In this document: piece after piece, positions 53 through 7,155 of the stretch | Numbering within the stretch: the first letter of the stretch is position 1 | Layout of the letters: every line of letters begins with the position of its first letter | Assembly: GCA_024642005.1 (NCBI GenBank) | Contig: JAHECA010000023.1 | Span: 1 to 56,636, forward strand | Length of the DNA stretch: 56,636 bases | Reading direction: 5' to 3' | Origin: Robiginitalea sp. | GTDB lineage: Bacteria > Bacteroidota > Bacteroidia > Flavobacteriales > Flavobacteriaceae | Notes under the pieces: model-generated | Databases searched by the model: none | What the model saw: the letters and a program-made list of their open reading frames with translations, nothing else | What the model was told of the DNA's origin: nothing | Position numbers and translations under genes: made by a program

Positions 53-1411
53 TTGTTGACGAATAGCTCCCGGATCAGAATCGCGTATACATCCGTTCTG
101 ATCATACTCCAGCTGGTCTTCATCATGGGGTGTTCCAAGGATAGAACGCCACAGGAAGCGCTCGGAGTCTATGTGGTGGAGACAGACTCCGGGTATCAAC
201 TAATTCGAAACGGGTCCGTCTTTCACGTGAATGGCGCCTCCGTAGGATTCGTGGGAGACGCCCATTGGGAAACATTGCGACAGGCGGGAGGAAATGCCAT
301 ACGCCTGTACGATACGGTTAACCTGCAATCGAATCTTGACAGGGCTGCAGAGCTGGGACTGGCGGTTGCCGTGGATATACCGCTTCCGGAACAACACGCG
401 CATTACGACTTATACGCGGATCCAATATGGTTAGCCGATACCCGGCGAAAAATTGAGAATCTTGTGCGCCGGCATAAGGATCATCCGGCCCTGCTGTTCT
501 GGACCCTTGGGAATGAAGTTGTTCCCAATATATCACTCCGTAATAAATCCATGAACTATTACAATTCCTTGGCAAAAGCTGTAAAGGAAGCAGATCCAGC
601 ACACCCCCTGACCACATCGGTACACCTCAACAGGCGTGAAATATTAAATGCCAGCCTCAATTGTCCTTACCTGGACTTCCTGTCCATAAATATTTTTGGA
701 GCGATCCGCGAATTTGATAAAAGGAAACATTCGATCCGGTATTTCTGGAAAGGGCCGTACATGCTAACCGAATGGGGCATCAATGGCCCCTGGGAAGCCG
801 ATATTTATACAGAGTGGGGGGCACCCATCGAACAAACAAGCACCAAAAAGGCCGAGCAGTACCTGGAACGCTATCAAATATTGCATGCTCAGAATGACGG
901 TCGCCTGCTCGGTGATTTCCTATTCTATTGGGGTCAGAAGGAAGAAAGTACGCCCTCCTGGTACAGCATCGTCCTGCCAAACAAAGACGCCACCCAAATT
1001 GCAGTGGATATTTCAAAGGCCTGGAGCAAAAATCCCATCCCTTATACCGGGCCGCGTATTGATTACATGCTATTGGAGGGAAAAGGAGCCCCTTCCAACA
1101 TCATAATGGAACCGGAAAAGCGCGTACATGCTTCCCTTAAGATCGCAGCTCCCTTAGGAGAAAACCTGACCTGCTCCTGGGAAATCCGACCGGAGCACTG
1201 GTATCGCGCCGGATCGCATGACACGGCCAGCAAACAAGTGATGCCGATCTTACCTATTGACTTTCAAAAAGAAGGTTTGGGGGATGTATCATTCGAAACT
1301 CCACTTGAATCAGGCCCATACCGCCTGTACGTATACCTGTCAGACCAGTGTGGGTTTGCGGCCACCACAAACATTCCCTTCTTTATCCTGGAACCCAAAC
1401 ATGGCCTCTAA
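53..1411 (+). CDS. lipoprotein glycoside hydrolase, GH-A clan (GH2-type TIM barrel)
   Basis: Predicted surface or periplasmic lipoprotein that cleaves a polysaccharide. A hydrophobic signal (residues about 8-25) ends in the lipobox FIMGC with lipidated Cys27. A TIM barrel follows: the early motif HVNGASV and ..AGGNAIRLYD are typical of GH2/GH5-like glycosidases. The acid/base is probably Glu155 (TLGNEV) and the nucleophile Glu240 (LTEWG), both present, so it should be active. The last 90 residues look like a beta-sandwich. The start is a TTG at 53 (TTG at 56 is equally possible); the frame is open to the window edge, so an upstream start cannot be excluded. It overlaps the next gene by 11 bases, implying co-translation. 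Substrate unknown. Confidence 0.75.
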   Translation: MLTNSSRIRIAYTSVLIILQLVFIMGCSKDRTPQEALGVYVVETDSGYQLIRNGSVFHVNGASVGFVGDAHWETLRQAGGNAIRLYDTVNLQSNLDRAAELGLAVAVDIPLPEQHAHYDLYADPIWLADTRRKIENLVRRHKDHPALLFWTLGNEVVPNISLRNKSMNYYNSLAKAVKEADPAHPLTTSVHLNRREILNASLNCPYLDFLSINIFGAIREFDKRKHSIRYFWKGPYMLTEWGINGPWEADIYTEWGAPIEQTSTKKAEQYLERYQILHAQNDGRLLGDFLFYWGQKEESTPSWYSIVLPNKDATQIAVDISKAWSKNPIPYTGPRIDYMLLEGKGAPSNIIMEPEKRVHASLKIAAPLGENLTCSWEIRPEHWYRAGSHDTASKQVMPILPIDFQKEGLGDVSFETPLESGPYRLYVYLSDQCGFAATTNIPFFILEPKHGL

Positions 1412-4400
1412 ACCGAAAGTATTACCGCCAAGCCGCCGCGAGTCGCGAGCCATAAGATTGATGGTATTGCTGGGGGTTCTCTCCATCGGGCACTTTCTAT
1501 TCTGGTTCTTCCAGCCGGAGTATCGCGGACAGGGGCTTTTATTTGGGCTGATCACCATTATTTTTGTTTATGGCCTGCTCCGCAATATGTATTTGTGGTA
1601 CCATTATTTGGCCATTTCTGTTCCTGCAACGCCCCCCCTGGAACGGGCTTTCACCGTCGATGTACTCACCACCTATTTTCCGGGAGAGCCCTATGAGATG
1701 ACCCTGGCCACGCTGGAGGCCATACAGCGCATCCGGTACCCACACACCGCATATCTCTGTGACGAGGCAAATGACCCATACCTTCGGGAGCGCTGCCGGG
1801 AAATGGGGATAAGGCACGTAACCCGGAACAACCGCATTGACGCCAAGGCAGGCAACATCAACAACGCCCTCAAACAGGCCACGGGTGAGATCTGCCTGAT
1901 CCTCGACCCCGACCACGTTCCCGATCCTGATTTTTTTGACCCGGTTTTGCCGCATTTCCAGAACCCGGAGATCGGCTTTGTGCAGGTGGTGCAATCCTAC
2001 GGCAACATCCGGGAAAGCCTGGTCGCCCGGGGGGCTTCCGAACAGACCTTCCAGTTTTACGGCCCCATGATGATGTCGATGAACACCTACGGCACGGTCA
2101 ATGCCATCGGGGCCAATTGCACCTTCCGCCGGGAAGCCCTCGACAGTATCGGCGGCCATGCCCCGGGGCTTTCTGAAGACATGCATACGGCCATGCAACT
2201 GCACGCCCGTGGCTGGAAATCGGTCTATGTGCCGCGAATCCTGGCCAGGGGGCTTGCACCGGCTACCCTGCATGCCTTCTTCAAGCAGCAGCTCAAATGG
2301 TCGCGGGGCACGTTCGAACTCCTGTTCAGGGTATACCCGAAACTATTCCGCCAATTCACCTTCCGTCAGAAACTGCACTATGGCCTGCTCCCGCTCCATT
2401 TCCTGATCGGGCTGATCTACCTCCTGAGCTTCAGCGTGCCCGTGCTTTCCCTCTTGATGTCCGAAACCCCCTGGAACGGCAGCCTGTTACTTTTCCTGTT
2501 TGCCCTCATACCGGTCCTGGCCAGCGAAATTCTGATCCGTGCGTACATACAACAGTGGGTCATGGAAAAAGAGGAACGCGGCTTTCACCTGGTGGGAGGC
2601 CTGCTGCAGATCACCACCTGGTGGATCTATTTGCTGGGATTTCTCTATGCCATCATCAACAAAAAGGTACCCTACCTGCCAACCCCCAAAGGAGATGAAA
2701 ACAACACGAATCTCAATATCGTACTGCCCAATATTCTTTTAGGCTTGTTGTCATTGGGAGCTATAGTCTATGGGCTATACCATGACCTGACCCCGTATTC
2801 CCTCGCCATGGCGGGATTTGCCCTCCTAAATGCCTTGTTCATGTTTTTTGGGGTGTATCTCGCGACCCGGGTAACCAATAGAAACAAAATACTCAGAACG
2901 TTCCTGGAGAAGCGCACATTGGGCTTCCTCGTTTCTGTCAAACATGCCTTTGAAAGCCTTTCAGACCGCTTGTTTTACATAACGCGGGCAGTGGCCCTGC
3001 CCATGCTCTTAGTGCTGATTGCGCTGAGCCTTTTCGGCCTGCAACGCTATTCCTACGAGCAATGGAGCGGGGTACGACCCGAGCCTGCCAGGCCCAGGGA
3101 TGGGATTACCCATCTGGGCATCTTCCTGCCCTCTGGCACCGATGGCCTGACAAATTTGGATTCGGTGCAACTTCTGGAAAAACAGGAGGGAATCGCCTTC
3201 GATTTGGTCGCTGTCTATCAGGCCTGGGGCGACCGGGCCCATACCGGCTCCATCGGGCGGCAGCTCGATACGATCGCCGCCAGGGGTTACCTTCCCATGC
3301 TCACCTGGGAGCCCTGGACCAATGACTTCGCCGCGGCCGACACCCTCCCGGAACTGCAGGAAAACAAACGGGTGTTCCGACATATTCTCACGGGGGCTTT
3401 CGACCCGTATATCGATTCGGTGGCGCTGTGCCTGAAAAGCTTTCGGGAACCTGTTTTTCTGCGGTTCGCCCATGAATTCGACAACCCGGACTATCCCTGG
3501 TCGCAAACAGGCGGCAATACCCCTGAATCATTCCGGGAAGCCTGGCGCTATGTGCACGATCGGTTCCGGGCCCAGGGGGCTCATAATGTGATCTGGATCT
3601 GGAACCCCTTTAGTCCGGTTAACCTGGATTCTTACTATCCCGGGGAGGGCTATGTAGACTGGATCGGGGTAACCGGCCTCGATTACGGACCCTACAACCG
3701 CCAGGGGGAGTCGCAGTCCTTCGATACCCTCTACCGTCCCTTCCACGACGCCTTTAACCAATTGGCCCCACTCCCGGTAATGGTGGCCGAATTCGGAACG
3801 TTGACCAAAGACGCAAATGCCGACCGCTGGTTCCGGGAAGCCCTGGCGGCTGCCAAAAATGACTTTGGGGAAATCAAGGCCTGGACGGTTTTCCGCAGCG
3901 ACCGGGACGAAAACCTGCCCCCCCGGGCAATGGGAAAGGTAAAACGGTTGAATTGGGTAACTCCCTTACCTGCCCTTCGGGGCCTGAGTGTTAACCGCGA
4001 GAACGGGTCGGGCATCCCCTCACAGATCGATCTTGAAGCCACGAAACCTTATCAGGCCTTGCCGCTCCCCGACCGGCCCATCCGGGGGGTTGCTTTCAAA
4101 AAGGGGCAGCAATGGTACAGCAGCCGGTATACCGCCACACGGGCTTCCCTGGAGCACGATTTCGGCCTCATGAAGCAAGCGGGGATCAACACTTTCAAAT
4201 ATTACGGCCCCACCCTCTATGACCACAATATTCTGCAAGTTGCCCCTGAATTCGATCTGCAGCTCGTTTATGGGTTCTGGATACCGGATGACCTGGATTT
4301 CATAAGGGACAGCCTTCGCCTGCAAGCACTAGAAGCAAAGATTGCAGCAAACATTAAGCAGCTAAAGAGCCACCCGAATATCCTGGCCTGGAACCTGGGC

Positions 4401-5207
4401 AATCCGCACTGGTCTTCCCTGGCCCTGCGATACCAGCGGCCCGAACTCGACCAGCAGCGACAAGCCTACCTGAACTGGCTTAAGCGCCTGACAAGAGCCA
4501 TTAAAACAGTTGACCCGACCCACTTGCTCATTGTGGATCTGCACCCCGATCCAAATCCCACTTTGCAATTCGAGGCCTACCGGAAGGCCAACCTGGCGAT
4601 CGACGCATTCGGGCTGATCGGAGACAGGCCGGAACCGTTACAGGCATTTATGCTCCTTTCTCGCGCATCGCGCCTACAGGCCATCATCACCGATGCCCCG
4701 GCCGAGGTTTACCTCTTGGCCGGCAATACCCATTTTATGGCTCGAAACTGGCAGGATCAATGGAACGATCAATCGGTTACTTTTGATGGTTTACTCGACA
4801 TGTTTGGCCGCAAGCGATTCGGTTATCATACGTTGGCCCGGGAATGGACCGGGCAACCCGTCCCCAAAATTGAAGGAGGCATAGCCATATTACGGCCCGC
4901 CAAATCCCTTAGTCCGAAAAATAAGGTCACCTTCCATGCCAAGCGCTTTTTAAAAGGAGAATGGCTTGAACCAGCTAGCGATACCCAAAATGATTATTTA
5001 TGGTTGCTGGTTAAGAATGATTACTACGGCAATCCCATTGCTGTTCAAAAACTGGGGACTGGTGCCTCGATGGAACTCGAAGTACCCGAAAATTATCCGC
5101 TTTTCGAATTGAGGCTCACCTTTGAATCGGGAGATCGATTTATTAGTGACCGCGTGCCTTTAAACCTGCCGCTCCATTCCTCGCTCCGCGGTATTCAATA
5201 CCGATAA
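1401..5207 (+). CDS. membrane glycosyltransferase (GT2) fused to GH26-type and degenerate GH2-like glycosidase domains
   Basis: A 1268-residue multidomain protein, likely a polysaccharide synthase of the inner membrane. Two N-terminal membrane segments (about 18-37, 46-72) precede a cytoplasmic GT2 domain with the processive-synthase signature: Asp121, DPD at 169-171, SED at 258-260 and QQLKW at 296-300 (equivalent to D, DxD, TED, QxxRW of cellulose synthases). Five to six more membrane segments follow (325-352, 361-379, 402-421, 438-460, 466-491, 531-548). From about 568 to 850 lies a GH26-like barrel with probable acid/base Glu692 (FAHEFD) and nucleophile Glu797 (VAEFG). From about 893 to 1150 a second barrel resembles the upstream lipoprotein, but its acid/base position is Pro1002 (LGNPHW), so it is probably inactive. 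A beta-sandwich tail ends the protein. No PilZ domain is evident. The ATG at 1401 is preferred because an upstream in-frame ATG at 1257 lies deep inside the previous gene. It ends one base before ctlX, which converges on it. Confidence 0.85.
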   Translation: MASKPKVLPPSRRESRAIRLMVLLGVLSIGHFLFWFFQPEYRGQGLLFGLITIIFVYGLLRNMYLWYHYLAISVPATPPLERAFTVDVLTTYFPGEPYEMTLATLEAIQRIRYPHTAYLCDEANDPYLRERCREMGIRHVTRNNRIDAKAGNINNALKQATGEICLILDPDHVPDPDFFDPVLPHFQNPEIGFVQVVQSYGNIRESLVARGASEQTFQFYGPMMMSMNTYGTVNAIGANCTFRREALDSIGGHAPGLSEDMHTAMQLHARGWKSVYVPRILARGLAPATLHAFFKQQLKWSRGTFELLFRVYPKLFRQFTFRQKLHYGLLPLHFLIGLIYLLSFSVPVLSLLMSETPWNGSLLLFLFALIPVLASEILIRAYIQQWVMEKEERGFHLVGGLLQITTWWIYLLGFLYAIINKKVPYLPTPKGDENNTNLNIVLPNILLGLLSLGAIVYGLYHDLTPYSLAMAGFALLNALFMFFGVYLATRVTNRNKILRTFLEKRTLGFLVSVKHAFESLSDRLFYITRAVALPMLLVLIALSLFGLQRYSYEQWSGVRPEPARPRDGITHLGIFLPSGTDGLTNLDSVQLLEKQEGIAFDLVAVYQAWGDRAHTGSIGRQLDTIAARGYLPMLTWEPWTNDFAAADTLPELQENKRVFRHILTGAFDPYIDSVALCLKSFREPVFLRFAHEFDNPDYPWSQTGGNTPESFREAWRYVHDRFRAQGAHNVIWIWNPFSPVNLDSYYPGEGYVDWIGVTGLDYGPYNRQGESQSFDTLYRPFHDAFNQLAPLPVMVAEFGTLTKDANADRWFREALAAAKNDFGEIKAWTVFRSDRDENLPPRAMGKVKRLNWVTPLPALRGLSVNRENGSGIPSQIDLEATKPYQALPLPDRPIRGVAFKKGQQWYSSRYTATRASLEHDFGLMKQAGINTFKYYGPTLYDHNILQVAPEFDLQLVYGFWIPDDLDFIRDSLRLQALEAKIAANIKQLKSHPNILAWNLGNPHWSSLALRYQRPELDQQRQAYLNWLKRLTRAIKTVDPTHLLIVDLHPDPNPTLQFEAYRKANLAIDAFGLIGDRPEPLQAFMLLSRASRLQAIITDAPAEVYLLAGNTHFMARNWQDQWNDQSVTFDGLLDMFGRKRFGYHTLAREWTGQPVPKIEGGIAILRPAKSLSPKNKVTFHAKRFLKGEWLEPASDTQNDYLWLLVKNDYYGNPIAVQKLGTGASMELEVPENYPLFELRLTFESGDRFISDRVPLNLPLHSSLRGIQYR

Positions 5208-5208
5208 A

Positions 5209-6144
5209 CTACATCTGAACCCGAGGCAAAAACACCTCGGCCAGCATGCAGCGGGCACTGCCGCCCCCGCACGATTCAATGGTATCGAGTGGGCTCGAAA
5301 CAATGCGTGAGGTCTTTTCAATGGCCGCCACCTGTGCCGGGGTGAGCGAATCTCGGGCCGCCTGACTCATGACCAATAGGCGCTGCCCGCCCCTGCCCAG
5401 CAATTGCAGCATATTCCCTGCAAAGCGGTGCATCTGGGCCTCGGTAATGGCTATGATTTCCTTTCCGTCTTGCCGCAGGTGGTCTGTAACCTGCTTGCGT
5501 TCCTGCCTGTCGTCGATGGCATCGAGGCAGATTACCGCAAAGGTTTCGGCCAGGCACATCATCACGTTGGTGTGGTAAATGGGCAGGCGCTTGCCGTCTA
5601 CCGACTGAAAAGCGGTGAAGAGTACGGGCGACACCTCGAAATCTTCACAGAACTCGATAAACAGTTCTTCATCGGCCCGGGCCGACAGGGCACAGTAGGC
5701 CTTCTGGTGTTCCCGGTCCATGAGAATGCTGCCGGTGCCTTCCAGGAAAAGGCCATCTGCCTCGGCCCCCGTATAATCGATTACCTCAGTGATGTCAAAA
5801 CCCTGCTCCTCCAACAGGTCCAGCAGGTCTTCCCGCCTTTCCCTCCTGCGGTTCTCGGCATACATCGGGTAGAGCACAACGGTGCCCTTTTCGTGGAATG
5901 AAATCCAGTTGTTGGGGAAAATGGAATCAGGAGTGTCAGCCTCGGCCCGGTCGTCGGCCACGACCACCGTTACCCCTTCTTCCCTGAGGCGGGCCACCAG
6001 GCCGTCGAATTCGTCCTGAGCCCGCTTGTTGATCTCCGAATTGCGCAGGTCCAGGTCTTCCTGAAAGTAGTTGTTCACGGCGGTTTCCTCGTTCATTCGG
6101 AAGTGCACGGGGCGGATCATCAAAACGGTGTCGGTAATCTGCAT
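5209..6144 (-). CDS. ctlX: citrulline utilization hydrolase CtlX-type (amidinotransferase fold)
   Basis: A guanidino-group-modifying-superfamily hydrolase of about 311 residues. Family hallmarks are FPNNW near residue 80, the catalytic His region HTNVMM, and the C-terminal catalytic Cys in GGGSARCML. CtlX proteins act on citrulline or related ureido/guanidino amino acids; the exact substrate here is inferred only from family. The ATG at 6144 (MQITDTV) is preferred over an ATG at 6177, since the conserved region begins at once. The neighbouring gene upstream encodes a second enzyme of the same fold, which suggests joint arginine or methylarginine breakdown. Confidence 0.8.
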   Translation of the reverse strand: MQITDTVLMIRPVHFRMNEETAVNNYFQEDLDLRNSEINKRAQDEFDGLVARLREEGVTVVVADDRAEADTPDSIFPNNWISFHEKGTVVLYPMYAENRRRERREDLLDLLEEQGFDITEVIDYTGAEADGLFLEGTGSILMDREHQKAYCALSARADEELFIEFCEDFEVSPVLFTAFQSVDGKRLPIYHTNVMMCLAETFAVICLDAIDDRQERKQVTDHLRQDGKEIIAITEAQMHRFAGNMLQLLGRGGQRLLVMSQAARDSLTPAQVAAIEKTSRIVSSPLDTIESCGGGSARCMLAEVFLPRVQM

Positions 6145-6240
6145 ACGAAGGGTGGCTAATTTCGGCAAAAGTAGCAATTTCCGCAGTCAATTTGTTACAG
6201 GGCTCAAGGTGCTTTGCAGGGCACTGGTTCCCTGCCTCCC

Positions 6241-7155
6241 CTACTCCCGCTCAAGCGGCAGGGTACTGCAGCGCAGCAGCCCCCCCTGTTTGCCCACCTC
6301 CCCATAAGGGATCTCTTCCACGGTGAGCCCGCGTTCGCGCAGCCAGCTGTTGAGCCGCGTAAAGCTGCGTTCCGAAACCACCACGTCGGGCGAAATAGAG
6401 AAGACGTTGGAATACATGCGGTACATTTCTTCGGTGTCGATCACCAGGACGTTTTCCGGCCCGAAATAGTCGAGCAGCCACCTGGCGTCGGCGGGGTCGA
6501 GGAAACTGTCCGGGTGCAAAATGGCCAGGTCGCGCCCAACCGGCTGAAAGCAACAATCCAGGTGCAGGGCATTGCCCCGGGCATTGGTATTTGACTTCCG
6601 CAGTTCAAATGCCCTCACATGCCGGCGGGGAAAACTGTCCTGCAGGTATTCGACAGCCGCCCGGTTGGTGCGGGCCGTAATGAAATCTGCGTAGTCCTTC
6701 CCGTTGTAGGTTCCTACAAAGAGCTGGTCTTTCCAGGGCATTACGTCTCCCCCTTCCACATGCACCTCGGGGGGTGGCATCAGCAATTGCTCCTCGCCGA
6801 TCTGGTCGAGCACGTGCACAATGGCCTCGAACTCCTGTTCGCGCCTGGGCAAAATATTGGCCTTGACCATTTTGTCGTCGACAACAAAGGCGATATCGCG
6901 CGAAAAGATCTGATTGCAGGCCGCAATTACCTCGGGCCTGAAGACCTGTACCCCGTATTTGCGCAGTACGGCGGCAAACCCTTCCATTTCACTGACCATG
7001 TCTGCTTCGGCCGGATAGGTGCCGGCCAGGATGTGCTCCAGCGATTTCGGGTCGTACGCCTCTTCGGGCCTGGGCACCGGGCCGCTGTTTTCGGCCGTGC
7101 CCAACACCACGGCCTTCAGCCGGGCGGTCTCGTCATGTATGTTCAGGTTCAGCAT
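6241..7155 (-). CDS. dimethylargininase / arginine deiminase-family amidinotransferase-fold protein
   Basis: A 304-residue cytoplasmic enzyme of the guanidino-group-modifying superfamily. Visible features are HVEGGDV (substrate-binding acidic residues), a central HLDCCFQP with the catalytic His, and LLRCSTLPL with the catalytic Cys near the C-terminus. Such proteins hydrolyse methylarginine, arginine or similar compounds to citrulline plus an amine. It lies 96 bases upstream of ctlX in the same direction and just after the gltA terminator, so it probably starts its own transcript with ctlX. Whether it is a dimethylargininase, an arginine deiminase or an amidinotransferase cannot be settled by eye. 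Confidence 0.75.
   Translation of the reverse strand: MLNLNIHDETARLKAVVLGTAENSGPVPRPEEAYDPKSLEHILAGTYPAEADMVSEMEGFAAVLRKYGVQVFRPEVIAACNQIFSRDIAFVVDDKMVKANILPRREQEFEAIVHVLDQIGEEQLLMPPPEVHVEGGDVMPWKDQLFVGTYNGKDYADFITARTNRAAVEYLQDSFPRRHVRAFELRKSNTNARGNALHLDCCFQPVGRDLAILHPDSFLDPADARWLLDYFGPENVLVIDTEEMYRMYSNVFSISPDVVVSERSFTRLNSWLRERGLTVEEIPYGEVGKQGGLLRCSTLPLERE

Follow-up and report, generated by a model that had tools for sequence, protein, structure and literature searches.

Can a bacterial polysaccharide synthase carry, on one and the same polypeptide, the enzyme that trims its product, and if so, which polymer would it make? The question is raised by a protein of Robiginitalea sp. encoded on a 56,636-nucleotide stretch of DNA, which represents a whole contig and is hereafter referred to as the window. 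The original prediction that the open reading frame 1401-5207 joins a synthase and a hydrolase in one chain is confirmed: it encodes both a GT2 synthase part and a GH26 domain with both catalytic glutamates (Table 1). Overlooked at that stage was a GH158-type gene located directly upstream, whose reading frame shares 11 nucleotides with that of the fusion gene (1401-1411); since this frame is open up to the first base of the contig, the true start of the upstream gene is uncertain.

Table 1. Features of the two-gene locus, with positions numbered along the window.
Feature	Position	Strand	Remarks
GH158-type glycosidase gene, 452 aa from TTG 53	53..1411 (about)	+	lipobox-like IMGC near N-terminus; E155 and E240
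Fusion gene, 1268 aa: GT2 synthase, GH26 and pseudo-GH158	1401..5207	+	ATG at 1401
GT2 synthase core, residues 1-488	1401..2864	+	six predicted transmembrane helices and interface segment (397-418); AF2, Foldseek
Positively charged loop and extra predicted transmembrane helix, residues 489-555	2865..3065	+	
GH26 domain, residues 566-862	3096..3986	+	acid/base E692 (nt 3474-3476), nucleophile E797 (nt 3789-3791)
Degenerate GH158-type barrel with β-rich C-terminal part, residues about 890-1268	4068..5204	+	

Full-length homologues of the fusion protein are encoded in 7 of 59 further genomes that were searched around the window, and a profile scan of genome contigs yielded 277 relatives, which places the architecture beyond chance. 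The best 80 of these 277, ranked by similarity to the full-length query, were kept as 79 loci, with the remaining 197 lying outside the sample; being selected in this manner, the 79-locus sample favours the complete architecture. Removal of six duplicates left 82 distinct fusion sequences, and for the models five cut or split loci and four near-identical rows were removed as well. Contig ends cut several loci (L034, L053, L078, L095), and some loci of the L and G series belong to the same genomes. To judge from their record titles, all 79 loci belong to Bacteroidota broadly defined (with Balneolia), and the genera and groups possessing the module comprise Robiginitalea, Chitinophaga, Pedobacter, Lewinella, Dyadobacter and Balneolaceae. 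When 392 genomes were drawn evenly from the phylum, 15 of them reached E 1e-100, at 16 places counting the window's own, and 24 of 194 genomes in the order of G246 reach 1e-80; the family is thus scattered rather than universal. Together, these counts refute the idea that the fusion is unique to this genome.

The N-terminal part of the protein is recognized by Pfam PF13641 (7.7e-23), and its best NCBIfam match is CelA (1.2e-48), with a score of 166 bits versus a cut-off of 699. It exhibits the fold, the flanking channel helices and the D/DxD/ED/Q..(R/K)W motifs of a processive, BcsA-like GT2. The motifs predicted originally (D, DPD, SED and QQLKW, along with membrane helices) are as stated, that is, D121, D169-P-D171, S-E-D260 and QQLKW (296-300), and they are retained in 81 of the 82 distinct sequences, the remaining row being a C-terminal piece without those columns. 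Position 298 of QQLKW is occupied by Ile in two of the 81, and the usual Arg of QxxRW is replaced by Lys in all 81 sequences having the column. An AF2 model of residues 1-862 has a pLDDT of 90.4 and a pTM of 0.69, the latter leaving the mutual placing of the GT2 and GH26 parts uncertain. The best Foldseek matches of the GT2 model are BcsA structures (4p00, E 9.5e-27; 9b8v, E 1.8e-26), and phmmer likewise ranks BcsA first among solved GT2s. Attempts to read the linkage from the GT2 sequence proved uninformative, with 30% identity to a BcsA and 26% to a GT2 of S. meliloti pSymB, and no PilZ domain is among the Pfam matches to the fusion protein up to E 1.

The six transmembrane helices predicted for the GT2 core from the AF2 model (12-36, 45-69, 321-353, 362-386, 438-461 and 465-488) appear, in our reading, to follow the order seen in BcsA. 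A seventh helix is predicted after the core at 532-555, and the intervening loop (489-531) is rich in Lys and Arg, with a mean net charge of +7.0 over 73 rows. It is the combination of the extra helix with a positive-inside loop that would place the GH26 and the third domain in the periplasm, in agreement with the location originally proposed for the GH26 domain.

Several lines of evidence identify this GH26 domain, which is the only PF02156 match in the host genome (1.7e-10, above cut-off), as a barrel of clan GH-A with both catalytic glutamates. In a phmmer search with residues 560-862, CtLic26A is found at 5e-22 and the next GH26 at 8e-11, and E692 and E797 pair in this alignment with the glutamates in the HE and AEF motifs of CtLic26A, so that the predicted presence of both catalytic residues is borne out. 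E692 is conserved in 82 of the 82 distinct sequences and E797 in 80, the two lacking the nucleophile being from Dyadobacter (L090, L094). The GH26 fold, expected from about residue 568 onwards, is indeed present: Foldseek retrieves CtLic26A at E 3e-18 to 3e-17 with TM-scores, normalized by target length, of 0.81-0.84 (0.80-0.84 over all comparisons), while those of the listed mannanases do not exceed 0.59 and that of a 1,3-xylanase is 0.59-0.61; the glutamates coincide in the sequence alignment. A hand-picked 20-row family profile (A6), which includes the strongly lichenase-like GH26 of L104, scores CtLic26A at 3.9e-44 and the best non-lichenase GH26 at 2.7e-12, and the GH26 domain of the window alone ranks these relatives in the same way, with a smaller gap. 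CtLic26A is thus nearer than mannanases or xylanases, and the GH26 domain is, by sequence comparison and modelling, closest to a lichenase and not to the mannanases.

The third barrel is more difficult to assign. Its Pfam match to PF02836 (E 0.045) is below cut-off, and phmmer with the single sequence gives a GH2 β-mannosidase as a weak best match (0.0027), ahead of BuGH158 (0.069). Alignment of its profile (A3) with that of the upstream GH158 family (A2) using hhalign, however, yields a probability of 98.7 and an E-value of 2.1e-16 over 314 columns, and a GH158 profile search of the host genome finds the third domain at 1.6e-8, behind two true GH158 genes and before the next match at 2e-4. 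A model of residues 556-1268, comprising the GH26 and third domains together, has a pLDDT of 90.9 and a pTM of 0.88; after the lichenase, GH158 structures occupy Foldseek ranks 8, 9, 11 and 12 and a GH2 glucuronidase rank 10, with GH158 9p26 at E 9.3e-15 and the glucuronidase close behind at 3.4e-14. Hence, sequence profiles and model favour a degenerate GH158 as the most likely identity of the third barrel. The residue equivalent to the acid/base Glu (1002) is Pro in the window protein, and Glu is found there in none of the 82 rows (Asp in 35, gap in 8); the nucleophile equivalent is Glu in only 16 of 82. A second active hydrolase can therefore be rejected, and from these substitutions the barrel is probably a non-catalytic, putative glucan-binding module. 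Of the two glycosidase-type domains proposed originally, only the GH26 domain is thus a probable enzyme.

The protein encoded upstream matches GH158 enzymes over nearly its whole length, covering both the barrel and the C-terminal domain: a profile of eight such sequences (A2) retrieves GH158(Pro) (9oro, E 1.4e-86) and BuGH158 (6pal, E 1.6e-81) from the PDB. Among 83 distinct rows, Glu155 is present in 81 (2 gapped) and Glu240 in 82 (1 gapped). BuGH158 is described in the available text of PMC7157763 as an endo-β-1,3-glucanase that is highly specific for Laminaria digitata laminarin, with mixed-linkage glucan roughly two orders of magnitude behind, and has E137 and E220 as catalytic residues; by counting along the alignment, with a constant numbering offset of 22, E155 and E240 would correspond to these. 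A crude lipobox pattern occurs in 40 of the 83 upstream sequences, several of which have uncertain or cut starts, and many others begin with a hydrophobic helix; a lipobox in all upstream partners can thus be dismissed. The host genome encodes one further GH158 (33% identical), which adjoins a sugar transporter and looks catabolic.

The association of the two genes is strict in the sample: a GH158-type gene is located directly upstream on the same strand in 79 of 79 loci (derived from the best 80 of 277 relatives), with the pair overlapping in 65 and lying within 60 nt in 78, although calling reading frames from the first start may exaggerate the overlap. Other than antisense shadow ORFs, as which we took ORFs in 41, 27 and 25 loci, no further neighbouring family occurs in more than 14 of the 79 loci, and a constant BcsB-like partner gene is, going by recurrence, unlikely. 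A tandem-GH26 gene, considered as a third constant member, was rejected, being present in only 12 of the 79 loci within the stretch examined; when the host genome was queried with one of these proteins, the fusion's own GH26 was the sole match. The originally envisaged tie between synthesis and trimming is supported in so far as synthase and hydrolase domains are in one chain; a separate hydrolase gene is paired with that chain as well.

How far the domains keep together can be seen from the phylum draw, for which 15 places (all of the 16 but the window's) were scored with four domain profiles. A GH26-derived domain is fused or encoded next door in 15 of 15, and a GH158 gene is adjacent in 13, the exceptions being L104 (8.2 kb examined) and L114 (3.3-kb contig). 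Seven places (L106, L107 and L110-L114, with L114 cut at the N-terminus) have the complete GT2-GH26-pseudoGH158 chain. In L098 and L099, GT2 is joined to pseudo-GH158 in a chain that has no GH26; the next gene downstream encodes two GH26 barrels in tandem, of which the first shows no intact catalytic pair and the second retains both glutamates. L104 has GT2 alone (42% identity), and the separate GH26 following it matches CtLic26A at 4.5e-35 and the next GH26 at 1.5e-4. GT2 is accompanied by a degraded GH26 in L100 and L105, convergent with GH158, and by a GH26 remnant in L101-L103, divergent from GH158; in these five, the GH26 catalytic residues are lost or not alignable. That the same kinds of domains stay together, fused or split, supports a functional link, and the catalytic losses in Dyadobacter, L100-L103 and L105 indicate that cutting by the fused GH26 is dispensable in some lineages.

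Considering sequences and models together, we regard it as rather probable that the locus is a two-gene module for the synthesis and editing of a β-glucan containing 1,3 and probably 1,4 bonds. As suggested by fold and motifs, the substrate of the GT2 would be a UDP-sugar (most likely UDP-glucose), polymerized in the cytoplasm, and the chain would be pushed through the synthase's own membrane channel in the manner of BcsA. Given the extra helix and the positive-inside loop, the chain would emerge beside the periplasmic GH26 on the same polypeptide, and this lichenase-type retaining enzyme would cut or transfer it, thereby setting its length or releasing it. The degenerate, non-catalytic GH158 barrel might hold the glucan, and the coupled GH158, with a lipid or an N-terminal helix as its anchor, might cut β-1,3 bonds. 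As a rule, a hydrolase coupled to a synthase acts on what that synthase makes, so that the polymer would contain bonds open to both hydrolases; the product is therefore most likely a β-glucan with 1,3 bonds, and would most simply be a mixed 1,3;1,4-glucan. The lichenase-nearest GH26 and the GH158 partner thus point to β-glucan, one of the two polymers that had been proposed, as the likeliest, even though membership of GH26 or GH158 does not fix specificity, which counts against this reading.

The alternatives differ in the polymer and in the role they assign to the barrels. A plain β-1,3-glucan, curdlan-like or cyclic, with GH158 and GH26 serving as transglycosylases that shorten, branch or cyclize the chain in the way proposed for the Pseudomonas GH17-GT2 (NdvB/Orphan) proteins, is possible if rather unlikely: the usual partner is a GH158, BuGH158 favours laminarin, and the poor action on mixed-linkage glucan of those Bacteroides GH158s that have been studied, as given in the text available (PMC7157763), keeps this product in play, as do the Pseudomonas GH17-GT2 proteins, in which, as far as they are described in PMC10237404, a GT2 synthase likewise bears a periplasmic barrel; among solved enzymes, however, the GH26 domain is closest to one acting on mixed-linkage glucan. 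Considering the synthase part, one may instead think of a pure β-1,4-glucan, with GH26 and GH158 acting as quality-control cutters like BcsZ, since the closest solved GT2 is BcsA and the best NCBIfam match CelA. However, the CelA score is far from its cut-off, PilZ is missing from the Pfam matches, apart from GH158 no neighbour family is constant across the 79 loci, which makes a fixed BcsB-like partner unlikely, and for both hydrolases the closest enzymes are ones that act on glucans with 1,3 bonds, so that we consider a cellulose-type system improbable. Mannan, the other polymer named in the original prediction, or some other polymer whose making and trimming would involve a GH26 mannanase, appears highly improbable: many other solved GH26 matches are named mannanases, but these are far more distant than the lichenase in sequence, profile (best non-lichenase GH26 2.7e-12 versus 3.9e-44) and fold (TM-scores of at most 0.59 versus 0.80-0.84), and the partner gene encodes a GH158. 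Based on this lead of CtLic26A in phmmer, profile and Foldseek comparisons, the mannan reading was dropped.

The preferred reading of a β-glucan module suggests that members of the Bacteroidota, known mainly as degraders of mixed-linkage and 1,3-glucans, make and trim a β-glucan that has gone unrecognized. To our knowledge, production of such glucans is documented in few bacteria, and a two-gene module conserved across such different genera would add a source of β-glucan in soils and seas. It is tempting to speculate, albeit tentatively, that many Bacteroidota produce a mixed-linkage glucan resembling lichenin by means of a self-trimming, processive GT2 synthase, which would have its own lichenase where the chain leaves the channel, a retired laminarinase as chain guide and a live laminarinase as partner, yielding a defined short, transferred or cyclized glucan of the periplasm or surface. 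The fusion offers a single polypeptide in which a point mutation could uncouple synthesis from cutting, and the fused, split and dead variants constitute a natural series on the purpose of a tethered hydrolase. It is also a warning that genomic counts of GH26 and GH158 are not always a sign of catabolism.

A GT2-GH26 fusion, or a GT2 accompanied by GH158, was not found described in the literature searched, which included few subscription papers or preprints. With the Bcs cellulose system, in which BcsZ is the hydrolase, the locus shares the GT2 fold, the channel helices, the D/DxD/ED/Q..xW motifs and the presence of a hydrolase, and it differs in having no PilZ match, no constant partner beyond GH158, QQLKW in place of QxxRW, and a hydrolase that is fused and from another family. 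Among solved structures, the GH26 domain has its closest relative in CtLic26A, the GH26 lichenase of Clostridium thermocellum endoglucanase H, with which it shares about 25% identity and the alignment of both catalytic glutamates; CtLic26A comes from what we take to be a degradative endoglucanase, whereas the GH26 of the window is located in a synthase.

The upstream protein resembles BuGH158 and GH158(Pro) in retaining both glutamates, and the third domain of the fusion resembles a degenerate copy; BuGH158, however, belongs to a catabolic locus according to the text available (PMC7157763), and the GH158 of the window is paired with a synthase. RiGT2 of Romboutsia ilealis and BgsA of Sinorhizobium meliloti are GT2 synthases of 1,3;1,4-glucan, the former with and the latter without a C-terminal PilZ domain, and the available portion of the source mentions a fused hydrolase for neither (PMC10374906). 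Tethered synthase-hydrolases are already known: the Pseudomonas GH17-GT2 'Orphan'/NdvB proteins (Glt1, Glt3) are proposed, in the accessible parts of PMC10237404 and PMC11005184, to be cyclic β-1,3-glucan synthases, and they likewise have on one chain a BcsA-like GT2 in the cytoplasm, a membrane channel and, in the periplasm, a TIM barrel, which in the Pseudomonas proteins acts on β-1,3-glucan. In those proteins, as described there, GH17 is N-terminal and the sole barrel, whereas the fusion is without an N-terminal GH17 on its GT2 and has a GH26 and a degenerate GH158 at the C-terminal side, an added helix and a separate GH158 gene. The claim that no characterized example has this order stands, within the literature searched, for the order itself, with the qualification that the opposite one is known from GH17-GT2 (PMC10237404, PMC11005184); the order GT2-GH26-pseudoGH158 is widespread and undescribed within the literature searched. 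The barrels might hydrolyse, transfer or cyclize the chain, and the Pseudomonas GH17-GT2 proteins represent the nearest precedent for tethering.

Despite an altered or degraded GH26 catalytic region, the fusion copies of four loci (L079, L089, L090 and L094) still exhibit intact GT2 motifs. The two-ORF breaks in the upstream GH158 gene of L074 and in the fusion gene of L092 may reflect either decay or sequencing error.

Coordinates of the features discussed
Feature	Location	Remark
Tandem-GH26 gene	L098:5991-7679; L099:969-2648; L031:4922-6637; L047:5010-6779; ten other loci	protein ~570 aa
Sulfatase-fold protein	L031:2415-4925	~836 aa
Second host-genome GH158 gene	L132:7151-10015	MFS sugar transporter alongside
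GT2-only homologue, then stand-alone lichenase-like GH26	L104:2999-5898	
Fusion copies, GH26 altered or degraded	L090; L094; L079:1901-5587; L089	L090, L094: Dyadobacter
Upstream GH158 gene, two ORFs	L074:5674-7004	
Fusion gene, two ORFs	L092:7001-10762	
Two adjacent genes, dimethylarginine dimethylaminohydrolase/arginine deiminase kind	window 5209-7155	(-) strand

Alignment of 14 tandem-GH26 proteins revealed no intact catalytic pair in the first barrel, while HE and TEFG are both intact in the second; a Pfam scan of five of these proteins left four without any match. The sulfatase-fold protein adjoins the tandem-GH26 gene in L031, and its family is present in 5 of the 79 loci kept from the best 80 of 277 relatives in a genome scan. 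In the window, the (-) strand gene pair is convergent with the synthase gene, and both its families recur (each in 12 of the 79 loci).

The second GH158 of the host genome is probably catabolic. In L104, a TPR protein precedes the GT2-only homologue. This homologue and the separate GH26, which matches CtLic26A, possibly represent a pre-fusion form.
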